DNA of 21,621 bases, taken from IMG/VR virus record IMGVR_UViG_3300027734_000345, positions 1 to 21,621 of that record. One strand, 5' to 3'. The translations under genes and the position numbers were made by a program. The notes below the pieces were generated by a model that searched no databases, was not told the origin of the DNA, and worked only from the letters and a program-made list of their open reading frames with translations. This document shows, piece by piece, positions 7,566-19,952 of the stretch (position 1 is its first letter; each line of letters begins with the position of its first letter). The DNA is from a virus.

Positions 7566-7668
7566 GATATAGTTGAGGCATGGCTACCTTTAGCGGGGGA
7601 AAAGGCGATTCATCACCGTCCTGCCAATGCTTCTTTTTGTGATGATGACCAACGATGTGAGGTTTATT

Positions 7669-8394
7669 ATGAAACTTATACCCAAAAATTGGGCTGTATT
7701 CCAGCACTATAAAGATCGTAATCCACCTTGGATAAAACTCCATCGTGAGACATTAAATGACAGAACATTTATGACCTTGCCTATCGCTAGCAAGGCGCTA
7801 GCACCATTGATGTGGTTGCTAGCATCAGAGTCCAAAAATGGTGTTTTTGATGGGTCAGTCGATGACCTCATGTTCAGACTACATATAACTAAGAAGGAAT
7901 ATGATGATGGTGTTAAGCCATTGATTGATAAGGGATTCTTTGAGATTGCCAGCGGAGTGCTAGCAGACTGCCAGCAAGATGCTAGACCAGAGACAGAGAC
8001 AGAGAGAGAGACAAAGAGAGAGACAGAAGCAAAAAAGTCCACAAGAGGCTCACGCCTCTCTGCTGATTTTGTTTTGCCAACAGAATGGGCAGACTGGGCT
8101 AAACAGGAAAGACCCGATCTAGACTTGCGGAGCGTAGGAGAGCAGTTTAGAGACTACTGGAGCGCAAAAGCGGGTTCAGGCTCCACAAAGCTTGACTGGC
8201 AAGCAACATGGCGCAACTGGGTGAGAAACCAAAAGCAAGTGTTTAAACAGGCTGACATTGCTAGAACGACAGTGCCATCAAGCTCATTGCGTGATCCTGC
8301 CCTTGCTAAACTTGATGAAGATATGAAGAATGCCAAGCCAAACCCTGAAATACTTGCCAAAATCAAAGAAGCATTGAAAGGAAAGGTGGCATGA
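7669..8394 (+). CDS. Phage replication initiator-like protein with DnaT-type C-terminal domain
   Basis: 241 residues from the ATG at 7669, preceded by TGAGGT. The N-terminal domain (about 1-100) resembles winged-helix domains of phage replication proteins (NWAVFQHYKDRNPPWIKLHR). A low-complexity linker (about 107-122) of repeated Glu-Thr-Glu/Arg-Glu-Thr follows, encoded by a purine-rich GAGACA-type DNA repeat at about 7985-8030. The C-terminal part has the W-rich pattern EWADWAK, FRDYW, LDWQATWRNWV seen in DnaT-like DNA-binding domains. A role in loading replication proteins at the phage origin is likely. Confidence 0.75.
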   Translation: MKLIPKNWAVFQHYKDRNPPWIKLHRETLNDRTFMTLPIASKALAPLMWLLASESKNGVFDGSVDDLMFRLHITKKEYDDGVKPLIDKGFFEIASGVLADCQQDARPETETERETKRETEAKKSTRGSRLSADFVLPTEWADWAKQERPDLDLRSVGEQFRDYWSAKAGSGSTKLDWQATWRNWVRNQKQVFKQADIARTTVPSSSLRDPALAKLDEDMKNAKPNPEILAKIKEALKGKVA

Positions 8395-9089
8395 ATGAGT
8401 TGGCTCTTTTCGCAGGCGCTGGTGGTGGAATACTTGGGGGAAAACTTCTTGGATGGCGAACAGTCTGCGCCGTTGAGTGGGAACCCTACCCAGCAAGCGT
8501 ATTGTGTGCCCGACAAAATGATGGACTTCTCCCGCCTTTCCCGATTTGGGATGACGTTCAAACCTTTGACGGAAAGCCTTGGGCAGGAATTGTTGACGTT
8601 GTATCTGGCGGATTTCCATGCCAAGACATCAGCGCAGCAGGAAAAGGCGCAGGAATTGATGGAGAACGATCAGGAATGTGGGGAGAAATGGCACGCATCA
8701 TTTGTGAAGTACGACCCAAATTCGTCTTTGTGGAGAACTCACCAATGCTCACTTCTAGGGGACTTGGAACAGTTCTCGGAAACTTGGCCTCAATGGGGTT
8801 TGATGCAAGATGGGGAGTGTTGGGAGCAGCAGATGTTGGAGCAAGACATAAACGAAACAGAATTTGGATTGTGGCCCACTCCAACCACACCAACTGGCGG
8901 TGGAAATTTCGGGGGTTCAGGGGCTTACAAAAATGCAATCAAGAATGGCACTCACATTCCACATTCAATCAACCCGAACCTTTACGAATGGTTGATGGGG
9001 TGGCCGCTAGGGTGGACAGACTTAAAGCCATTGGAAATGGACAAGTCCCATTGTGTGCAGCAACAGCATGGAGAATCCTAAATGACTAG
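8391..9089 (+). CDS. DNA C5-cytosine methyltransferase
   Basis: 232 residues with the main motifs in order: motif I FAGAGGG (7-13), catalytic motif IV GGFPCQD with Cys77, motif VI ENS (115-117), motif VIII RHKRNRIW (152-159) and motif X IGNGQVP (214-220). The target-recognition region between VIII and X is very short, so this is a compact enzyme. It should methylate cytosines in phage DNA and may protect against host restriction. It overlaps the upstream gene by four bases. A second long frame runs through the whole gene (8395-9081). Confidence 0.88.
   Translation: MNELALFAGAGGGILGGKLLGWRTVCAVEWEPYPASVLCARQNDGLLPPFPIWDDVQTFDGKPWAGIVDVVSGGFPCQDISAAGKGAGIDGERSGMWGEMARIICEVRPKFVFVENSPMLTSRGLGTVLGNLASMGFDARWGVLGAADVGARHKRNRIWIVAHSNHTNWRWKFRGFRGLQKCNQEWHSHSTFNQPEPLRMVDGVAARVDRLKAIGNGQVPLCAATAWRILND
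8395..9081 (+). CDS. Overprinted frame within the methyltransferase gene, protein-like
   Basis: 228 residues open in the +1 frame, covering almost the whole methyltransferase. It is not low-complexity: it is Trp-rich and has ordered segments such as DPNSSLWRTHQCSLLGDLEQ, ETWPQWGLMQDGECWE, EFGLWPTP and YEWLMGWPLGWTDLKPLEMD. From memory these patterns occur in stand-alone phage proteins annotated as hypothetical or methylase-associated; I could not check. The ATG lies four bases after the methyltransferase start and shares its ribosome binding site. Either the locus is dual-coding, or the frame is kept open by constraint on the enzyme. Confidence 0.45.
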   Translation: MSWLFSQALVVEYLGENFLDGEQSAPLSGNPTQQAYCVPDKMMDFSRLSRFGMTFKPLTESLGQELLTLYLADFHAKTSAQQEKAQELMENDQECGEKWHASFVKYDPNSSLWRTHQCSLLGDLEQFSETWPQWGLMQDGECWEQQMLEQDINETEFGLWPTPTTPTGGGNFGGSGAYKNAIKNGTHIPHSINPNLYEWLMGWPLGWTDLKPLEMDKSHCVQQQHGES

Positions 9090-17973: not shown

Positions 17974-18399
17974 ATGTACATTTGCATAACTGAAGTAGAC
18001 GCAGTAACGAAAATAGTCTGCACATCAGAGCCACAACGCACAGGCCCATCAATGCCTGCTGTTAAGGGTTGGACTCACATATGGCACGACAGTTCTACTT
18101 GGCCTGTTGAAGTGGCATCAGATGGCACATACCTCAGAGCGCCAAGATACTACGGCACTTGCGATGACGATGCCGACACAACCATTGCTGGTGTTTTGCA
18201 AGTCTTAACAGAAGCAGAATACACCGCTGCAAGAACCGCAGAACATGAAGCCCGTAAGCCTTACCCATCTTGGGTTGGCTACATTGACACTATGACTTGG
18301 GCTGCACCTGTAGCAAGACCCGCTGATGCTGTTATGAATGGCGGTAATGTGCGTTACCAGTGGGATGAGGCAACAGTCAACTGGATTGCACAGGCATGA
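17974..18399 (+). CDS. Fibre-associated protein of unknown function
   Basis: 141 residues, Trp-rich. WTHIWHDSSTWPV near residue 33 and the C-terminal KPYPSWVGYIDTMTW and RYQWDEATVNW recall small proteins next to phage fibre genes, sometimes annotated as assembly proteins. A helical TEAEYTAARTAEHEARKP stretch lies between them. It overlaps the sulfotransferase gene by four bases. Function is inferred from neighbours only. Confidence 0.6.
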   Translation: MYICITEVDAVTKIVCTSEPQRTGPSMPAVKGWTHIWHDSSTWPVEVASDGTYLRAPRYYGTCDDDADTTIAGVLQVLTEAEYTAARTAEHEARKPYPSWVGYIDTMTWAAPVARPADAVMNGGNVRYQWDEATVNWIAQA

Positions 18400-19217
18400 A
18401 AGAGTTCTTCTTCATCTCTGGTTTGCCAAGGTCAGGCTCTACCTTGCTCTCGGCTATCTTGCGCCAGAACCCTGAGTTCTATGCAGACATTTCCTCACCA
18501 GTACAAGGATTGGTTACATCAACCATCAACGTCATCACGGGCAGTGAGAGCAATCACCTGATTGATGAAAATAGACGCAAACAAATACTGAAAGACGTAT
18601 TTGAGGCTTACTACAAAGCAGTCACTCCAAACACTGTGTTTGACACCAGCAGGGGCTGGACTGCCAAGACATCACTCCTCAAAGACCTGTATCCACAGAC
18701 CAAGATCATTTGCTGTGTGCGTGACTTGCCTTGGATACTAGACAGCTTTGAGCGTATTTCAGCCAAGAACTCCCTGTACGGCGCAACGCTGACAGATGAT
18801 GAGGCACGACAGACAGTCACCACAAGGTGCGATGCCCTGATGGATGTCAAGAAAGAGGGTCAAGTAGTCAAACCTTATTACTTCTTGGAAGAAGGTTTGT
18901 TGCTAAATCCCGACATGATCCAACTGGTTGAGTACGAGTCTCTGTGCAAGCAGCCTGAGAGCGTCATGCGGGAGATATACCAGTTCATCGGCAAACCCTA
19001 CTTTGACCATGACTTTAAGAACGTGGAGTACGAGAACGAAGTGTTTGACAAAGCCTTGAACATGAAGAGTCTGCACACTGTACGCAAGGAAGTCACTTGG
19101 CAAGAGCGCCCATCTATCCTGCCAAAGTCAGTTTGGGAGAAGTACGCAGGAAAAGACTTCTGGCGCACACCAGCACCAGACTTTGCTGTCAAACAACTGT
19201 ACAAGGTCAAGGGATGA
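18396..19217 (+). CDS. Sulfotransferase
   Basis: 273 residues. The 5'-phosphosulfate-binding loop SGLPRSGSTLL (8-18) and the 3'-phosphate-binding segment CCVRDLPWILDSF (106-118, with Arg109 and Ser117) fit PAPS-dependent sulfotransferases. Such enzymes move sulfate from PAPS to a hydroxyl or amine on sugars, lipids, proteins or small molecules; the acceptor cannot be read from sequence. It is flanked by fibre genes upstream and, with a four-base overlap, by an APS-kinase-like gene downstream. No signal peptide, so it acts in the cytoplasm. Confidence 0.85.
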   Translation: MKEFFFISGLPRSGSTLLSAILRQNPEFYADISSPVQGLVTSTINVITGSESNHLIDENRRKQILKDVFEAYYKAVTPNTVFDTSRGWTAKTSLLKDLYPQTKIICCVRDLPWILDSFERISAKNSLYGATLTDDEARQTVTTRCDALMDVKKEGQVVKPYYFLEEGLLLNPDMIQLVEYESLCKQPESVMREIYQFIGKPYFDHDFKNVEYENEVFDKALNMKSLHTVRKEVTWQERPSILPKSVWEKYAGKDFWRTPAPDFAVKQLYKVKG

Positions 19218-19648
19218 AAATACTAATTATGGGGTTGCCTAGTTCGGGTAAGACTACCTTGGCTACAGCTTTGGCTAGGGAACTTTCCTGCGTTCACTTC
19301 AATGCTGATGAAATCCGCAAAGAAATCAACAAAGACCTTGGTTTTAGCGTAGCTGACCGCATAGAACAGGCTAGGCGTATGGGTGTTTTGTGCGATATAG
19401 CGTCTAGATATGGCGCTCATGTCATTGCCGATTTTGTTTGTCCTACCCCTGAAACACGGGAAGCCTTTGGCGCTCACTTCATTGTTTGGGTAGACCGCAT
19501 CAAAGAAGGCCCATTTGAGGACACAAACAAGCTATTTGTATCCCCAGAAAATCACGATGTACGGGTTGATGGCAAGTTTGGTATGCAGTATTACGCAGAA
19601 GAAATTGCCAAGATGATTGCACCAAAAAAGAAAAAGTTTGCCTTTTAG
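19214..19648 (+). CDS. cysC: Adenylylsulfate (APS) kinase-like protein
   Basis: 144 residues from the ATG at 19214; a longer frame exists upstream but lies inside the sulfotransferase gene. Walker A GLPSSGKT (7-14) and the segment ADEIRKEINKDLGFSVADRI (31-50), then QARRMG, match the CysC signature region; FEDTNKLFVSPENHDVRV (101-118) resembles the lid region. CysC phosphorylates APS to PAPS, the donor needed by the gene just upstream. It is shorter than bacterial CysC (about 200 residues), so a related small-molecule kinase is possible. Start and stop of the pair overlap (ATGA). Confidence 0.75.
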   Translation: MKILIMGLPSSGKTTLATALARELSCVHFNADEIRKEINKDLGFSVADRIEQARRMGVLCDIASRYGAHVIADFVCPTPETREAFGAHFIVWVDRIKEGPFEDTNKLFVSPENHDVRVDGKFGMQYYAEEIAKMIAPKKKKFAF

Positions 19649-19655
19649 GATCACC

Positions 19656-19763
19656 ATGACCCCAGAACTTCAAAAATACTACGAAAGCCGATTTGACATG
19701 ATGTCAGGTGGTATGACCCCAGAACTTCAAAAATACTATGAGAGCCGATTTGACATGATGTCA
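19656..19763 (+). repeat. 57-bp in-frame tandem duplication
   Basis: Copies begin at 19656 and 19713; over the first 51 bases they differ at two positions (both third-codon, silent: TAC/TAT and GAA/GAG), after which they diverge. The duplicated segment includes the start codon. Confidence 0.85.
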
Positions 19764-19952
19764 AACGAGGGTTGGAAGGATTTGACTATAGATATTGACA
19801 TTATGATAGAGTCGCTTAATAATCTGAGCGTTATTCCTGATGAAAAGACCTTAATGTTCAAAAAAGGTGAACTTTCCATCTTGACTTGGCTGCAAACCTT
19901 GAAAGAGGTCAGCGAAAGAGCATACGAGGAATTGAATGAAAAGAATGTTTGA
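19656..19952 (+). CDS. Small phage protein with duplicated N-terminus
   Basis: 98 residues from the ATG at 19656 (AGGA five bases upstream). The first 19 codons are repeated in tandem: MTPELQKYYESRFDMMS occurs at residues 1 and 20. The second copy also starts with ATG (19713) preceded by AGGTGG, so a 79-residue protein may be the ancestral or alternative product. The remainder (GWKDLTIDIDIMIESLNNLS and GELSILTWLQTLKEVSERAY) is a helical protein of a type common near podovirus head genes. Function unknown. Confidence 0.7.
   Translation: MTPELQKYYESRFDMMSGGMTPELQKYYESRFDMMSNEGWKDLTIDIDIMIESLNNLSVIPDEKTLMFKKGELSILTWLQTLKEVSERAYEELNEKNV

Follow-up and report, generated by a model that had tools for sequence, protein, structure and literature searches.

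The locus analysed here raises a simple question: why should a viral C5-cytosine methyltransferase gene be readable almost from end to end in a second frame, and what would the second product do? The window, by which we mean the whole stretch of DNA analysed, is 21,621 nucleotides of the IMG/VR virus record IMGVR_UViG_3300027734_000345.

Two reading frames in one gene

Two ORFs share the same DNA, alpha and, in the +1 frame, beta. Both had been pointed out in a sequence-only reading of the window and are present at the positions below; the two Trp-rich motifs quoted in that reading were found in the beta product. Beta starts 4 bases downstream of the alpha start and covers ~98% of alpha (228 of 232 codons).

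8377–8389, + strand: AAAGGAAAGGTGG, purine-rich, possible ribosome-binding site(s) for both starts, judged from sequence only
8391–8397, + strand: ATGAATG start cluster, with the alpha ATG (8391–8393), the upstream TGA (8392–8394) and the beta ATG (8395–8397)
8391–9089, + strand: alpha, 232 aa, catalytic subunit of a C5-cytosine methyltransferase, with motifs I–VIII and X, lacking both motif IX and a target-recognition domain
8395–9081, + strand: beta, 228 aa, +1-frame protein, putative specificity subunit

The TGA within the start cluster is the stop codon of an upstream replication gene (7627–8394). A scan for promoters and terminators around the alpha/beta gene found sites no commoner than in shuffled sequence.

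To judge beta's length, the synonymous codons of alpha were shuffled 20,000 times and the longest +1 run was scored. A run of at least 228 codons occurred in 0.125% of the shuffles. For this single gene the result is less extreme than the chance of order 1e-5 that had been estimated earlier, and a lone case would not be astonishing, since about 1 in 800 shuffles of one gene reaches this length. The relatives of the gene weigh against chance. Eighty viral relatives were gathered using the alpha protein alone, so that the sample is unselected for beta. Their +1 frame is open in 80/80 cases and stays so until at most 25 codons before alpha ends; the sole earlier +1 stop, the TGA of ATGA, lies at codon 0, ahead of beta's start. 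Under synonymous shuffling, each relative is expected to contain a mean of ~5.6 stops and to be open with a probability of ~0.1%; the +2 frame of the same 80 relatives has 10–23 stops. In a comparison set of 30 ordinary single-chain C5 methyltransferases from Pseudomonadota genomes, the +1 frame contains 5–35 stops (median 13) and is open in 0/30, and no match to beta was found in these 30 genes. The search for +1 stops in homologous methyltransferases, suggested earlier as a way of exposing a chance frame, thus favours coding, because the relatives are all open and the ordinary enzymes carry stops.

The position of the beta ATG is kept in all 178 unique viral relatives, 92 of which have ATGAATG, while the codon at alpha's start position varies among the 178 and in some is not a start codon of any kind. 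The conservation of both frames confirms that beta is a real coding sequence. The dual coding suggested earlier is thus borne out by the open frames, the invariant beta ATG and the selection in both frames described below.

Probable division of the enzyme between the two chains

Alpha matches PF00145 (Pfam, E=6.9e-33) and phrog_363 (1.7e-64), and the core of the PF00145 class is present in it, namely motifs I, IV (PCQ), VI (ENS) and VIII. The features along the two frames are as follows.

8607–8624, + strand: alpha motif IV, GGFPCQ, with the catalytic Cys77 (invariant)
8733–8741, + strand: alpha motif VI, ENS (E115 and N116 invariant)
8871–8984, + strand: alpha residues 161–198, unconstrained in alpha, with beta-dominated selection; overlaps the predicted disorder at 171–210
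8872–8967, + strand: beta residues 160–191, variable region with a single WPTP cassette, WPTPTTPTGGGNFGGSGAYKNAIKNGTHIPHS, putative target-recognition module
8983–9024, + strand: beta residues 197–210, YEWLMGWPLGWTDL, motif-IX-like (M201, G202, P204 and W207 invariant in a 114-sequence alignment)
9024–9068, + strand: alpha residues 212–226, motif X region, KAIGNGQVPLCAATA, with alpha-dominated selection

Besides C77, E115 and N116, residues R155 and R157 of alpha are invariant. The target-recognition domain and motif IX, which are expected of a single-chain PF00145 enzyme, are absent from alpha. In its AlphaFold model, the catalytic domain is confidently predicted, residues 171–210 fall below pLDDT 50 and the C-terminus forms a helix. 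Foldseek aligned the model with M.HhaI and M.HaeIII over ~172 columns of their 324–327 residues, covering the large domain only. Since the match is limited to the large domain and residues 171–210 are predicted to be disordered, alpha itself seems to lack a small domain.

Selection was followed in 82 independent pairs, with every possible change sorted by what it does in each of the two frames and with terminase genes from related phages as the single-coding control. Over alpha residues 6–160 selection is alpha-dominated (NN/SN 0.17–0.24), and beta-altering changes that are synonymous in alpha are still depleted (SN/SS 0.24–0.26 vs 0.78 in the control). Over residues 161–198, alpha is unconstrained (NN/SN 1.10, 1.02–1.20) and beta is constrained (NN/NS 0.53, 0.44–0.62). 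Opposite the LMGWPxGW motif, at alpha residues 199–211, the constraint on beta is very strong (NN/NS 0.15, 0.10–0.21; control 0.95), and at motif X (alpha 212–226) the constraint is back on alpha (NN/SN 0.09). Selection is therefore relayed from alpha motifs I–VIII to the beta variable region and LMGWPxGW, and then to alpha motif X. Twenty pairs of genome loci, compared by substitutions per codon position, display the same relay; a higher transition bias raises NN/NS in the genes and the control alike and leaves the pattern unchanged.

No family in Pfam or NCBIfam matched beta, which does have PHROG matches: phrog_1008 (1.3e-20) and two small families, phrog_26627 and phrog_35493. The invariant beta residues M201, G202, P204 and W207 fall within (E)WLMGWPxGW, which looks like motif IX of ordinary methyltransferases (LMGFPDTF, LMGLPDSY, LQGFPDDF). 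When the beta profile was compared with the 30 ordinary enzymes, just the eight core positions of motif IX aligned, and the alignment is not significant. The order of elements along the chain appears to be the stronger argument. In two loci, L231 (a Spirochaetia MAG) and L229 (Paraburkholderia), alpha stops directly past motif VIII, and beta, an intact ORF from its 5' start, proceeds from WPTP modules via LMGWPxGW into a stretch that can be recognised as motif X (alpha model 213–253, E 9e-9). Pattern and chain order together suggest that LMGWPxGW is equivalent to motif IX. The AlphaFold model of beta is poor (pLDDT 60, pTM 0.25) and found no fold match with Foldseek, and the beta profile, searched against the PDB sequences, retrieved no solved structure and only a weak, chance-like villin match. 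A fold that depends on the partner would be a candidate explanation for the poor prediction of beta alone.

The domain missing from alpha, the co-occurrence of alpha and beta, the conserved frames and the selection relay were computed directly. We consider it highly probable that the locus encodes a split, two-subunit C5-cytosine methyltransferase, both subunits of which derive from the same DNA, with beta responsible for target recognition and motif IX. Beta is likely the missing specificity part of the same enzyme. This model is favoured because beta is open in all alpha-fetched relatives, absent from ordinary methyltransferases and invariant in its ATG; because the constraint passes to beta where alpha is unconstrained and disordered; because LMGWPxGW resembles motif IX and the beta of L229 and L231 reaches motif X; and because natural two-polypeptide C5 methyltransferases exist, M.EcoHK31I and M.AquI (PMC3404938). 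It is weakened by the poor beta model with no fold, PDB or Pfam match, by the lack of significance of the motif IX alignment, and by the fact that the beta protein is a prediction.

In the split enzyme, both proteins would be translated from adjacent starts behind the replication gene, as the geometry and the conserved ATG suggest. Alpha, according to its model and homology, would fold as the catalytic domain, which binds SAM and holds motif X along with the catalytic Cys. Beta may bind alpha and fill the place of the small domain, and the pair would assemble on DNA, the alpha stretch that faces the recognition region of beta being perhaps merely a tolerated linker. By analogy with C5 methyltransferases in general, the beta cassette would pick the site, motif IX would pack the recognition part and alpha would methylate the cytosine at C5. 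The usual role of orphan phage methyltransferases is to protect phage DNA from host restriction, and the pair may likewise shield the DNA of this phage.

The alternative with the best standing, though an improbable one, is that beta is a true overprinted protein with a function apart from methylation, for example an inhibitor, an anti-restriction protein or a regulator. Neither fold nor profile comparison detected a match between beta and methyltransferase parts, and overprinted viral genes are often accessory (PMC8227390). However, the constraint shifts to beta exactly where alpha is without a recognition domain and motif IX, the LMGWPxGW motif resembles the latter, beta is essentially never present without alpha, and the motif X carried by beta in L229 and L231 would be needless for an unrelated protein. 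Less probable still is programmed ribosomal frameshifting, by which alpha motifs I–VIII would be fused to the recognition region and motif IX of beta. A single shift past motif VIII would indeed place the motifs up to IX in nearly canonical order, but motif X lies in the alpha frame, so that a second shift back would be required. We set frameshifting aside, given that beta also has its own invariant ATG, a constrained N-terminal half (by the depleted SN/SS above) and an intact ORF in L229 and L231. Least probable of all is a chance open frame favoured by the amino-acid and codon composition of alpha, which is ruled out by the open relatives, the invariant ATG and purifying selection in the beta frame, the retention of beta down to ~30% identity across phages, bacteria and an archaeal MAG, and its absence from ordinary methyltransferases.

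Distribution and modular variation of beta

Homologues of beta occur in phages of Pseudomonas, Acinetobacter, Salmonella, Klebsiella, Vibrio, Stenotrophomonas, Microcystis, Synechococcus and Mycobacterium, on plasmids of Acinetobacter, Leptospira and Bacteroides, and in E. coli prophages. At least 80 genome contigs carry beta, including those of Pseudomonadota, Akkermansia, Spirochaetia, Actinobacteria, Patescibacteria and an archaeal MAG, as do 17 of 299 genomes sampled from the phylum of a Pseudomonas. Among 370 beta domains collected at E up to 1e-5 (253 viral, 100 from genome contigs and 17 from phages or plasmids), 364 overlap alpha matches, exclusively in phase +1. The remaining six belong to the AquI-like loci L229 and L231 and the indel loci L234 and L255. 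Searches through phrog_1008 and phrog_26627 added 51 beta domains, with alpha overlapping in 51/51.

No stand-alone beta was found in the genomes, phages, plasmids or these two PHROG families, alpha overlapping in essentially every case. Apparent stand-alone entries reflect annotators who called one of the two frames; the CDS of PP083311, for example, begins at beta's ATG. The sequence-only reading thus stands with respect to dual coding and to a recurrent overprinted family, the beta matches overlapping alpha in phages, plasmids and bacterial genomes alike. Its mention of stand-alone phage homologues is unsupported, because beta overlaps alpha essentially everywhere, and the likely function of beta had escaped it.

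Public records usually list one frame or the other, so that many phage methyltransferases are annotated as lacking a target-recognition domain, with the partner absent. An exception is the Paenibacillus phage Bloom, both nested genes of which are annotated as "DNA cytosine methyltransferase". In Paenibacillus phages of this type (e.g. Bloom genes 56/57), beta is nested in alpha in phase +1, as in the window, and carries LMGFPIGW; unlike in the window, the internal start is ~200 bases downstream and alpha is longer. A literature search, with most subscription papers outside its reach, found no published account of phage nested pairs.

Some loci depart from the usual layout. Four of them (L189, L191, L217 and L219) have one in-frame stop in alpha and an open beta, which may reflect decay or a sequencing error; in L219 the stop may instead fall within alpha's linker. 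In the Mycobacterium phage Seabastian (L457, ~1800, genes 75/76), an apparent indel exchanges the two frames: the N-terminal part of alpha ends, and its C-terminal part runs on in frame with the N-terminal part of beta. The gene may be broken, or the tails may have been exchanged naturally. The E. coli PT62 prophage (L455) contains a second, distant C5 methyltransferase gene (43–1029), which precedes the beta-type one and is separated from it by a few genes. This second gene has a beta-like +1 frame as well (E 2.8e-16, LMGLPRAW), and further methyltransferase groups may thus share the nested arrangement.

Between the conserved block and motif IX, beta is composed of pieces headed by WPTPxAxD-like starts, mostly one to four per protein and one in the window. 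From 249 beta sequences, mostly of environmental phage contigs related to the window, we obtained 458 pieces of 112 types, a simple pattern having served to delimit the modules; of the 37 types that have at least three members, 34 were found in at least two different neighbourhoods. By their sequences, the pieces look like shuffled target-recognition modules, which suggests swappable specificity. The multispecific C5 methyltransferases of Bacillus phages such as SPR and phi3T carry several exchangeable recognition modules in tandem. The WPTP cassettes suggest a similar organization, with multispecificity as a candidate property; unlike the SPR and phi3T enzymes, which are built of one chain in one frame, the cassettes here lie on a second polypeptide in an overlapping frame. 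Evenly balanced, in our estimation, is the broader proposal of a widespread and largely unrecognised superfamily of nested, multispecific phage and prophage methyltransferases, in which the +1 subunit is a shuffled cassette array that re-aims a near-constant catalytic subunit.

Comparison with known split enzymes, and other features of the window

M.EcoHK31I is part of a restriction-modification system, and the gene for its large chain also encodes the small chain, in an alternative frame. The target of M.EcoHK31I is YGGCCR, and that of M.AquI is CYCGRG. In M.EcoHK31I, motifs I–VIII and X lie on the large chain, to which the predicted recognition domain is reportedly assigned as well, and motif IX lies on the smaller second chain; in M.AquI, another two-polypeptide enzyme, motifs IX and X lie on the second chain (PMC3404938). 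Like the large chain of M.EcoHK31I, alpha has motifs I–VIII and X. The location of motif IX on the small chain would agree with beta by its pattern, invariance and chain order, the profile match not being significant. The second chain is likewise read in an alternative frame inside the gene of the large one. In contrast to M.EcoHK31I, beta starts 4 bases past alpha and overlaps nearly all of it; the recognition region appears to lie on beta, the matching alpha stretch being unconstrained and disordered; and the gene belongs to a phage, where none of the adjoining ORFs examined in the window was recognised as an endonuclease gene. An EcoHK31I-like pair was not identifiable on plasmids or in E. 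coli. The division between catalysis and recognition resembles M.AquI as well, and L229 and L231 share with it a second chain bearing motifs IX and X; unlike in M.AquI, motif X of the window stays on alpha and the genes overlap almost completely. The locus is most likely a nested split C5 methyltransferase that is known in kind, more completely overlapped than the described example and widespread, with the cassette-built beta as its most novel element.

If this is true, two parts of an enzyme share one stretch of DNA nearly end to end, with selection passing to the second frame and then returning to the first. Such pairs would also be natural split enzymes for targeted methylation, a use to which M.EcoHK31I has already been put (PMC3439449).

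The window contains a second nested pair in different frames, in which a small lipoprotein-like ORF (1068–1286, + strand; SLALSSCGF, Pro-rich) lies inside a spanin-like ORF (860–1342, + strand), presumably the usual Rz/Rz1 arrangement. Downstream of tail-fibre-like genes, a sulfotransferase gene (18396–19217, + strand; PF13469, 2e-17) adjoins an APS kinase gene (19097–19648, + strand; PF01583, 2e-15), a possible phage sulfation pair. The ORF at 19617–19952 (+ strand) contains a near-exact tandem duplication, MTPELQKYYESRFDMMSGG / MTPELQKYYESRFDMMSNE.
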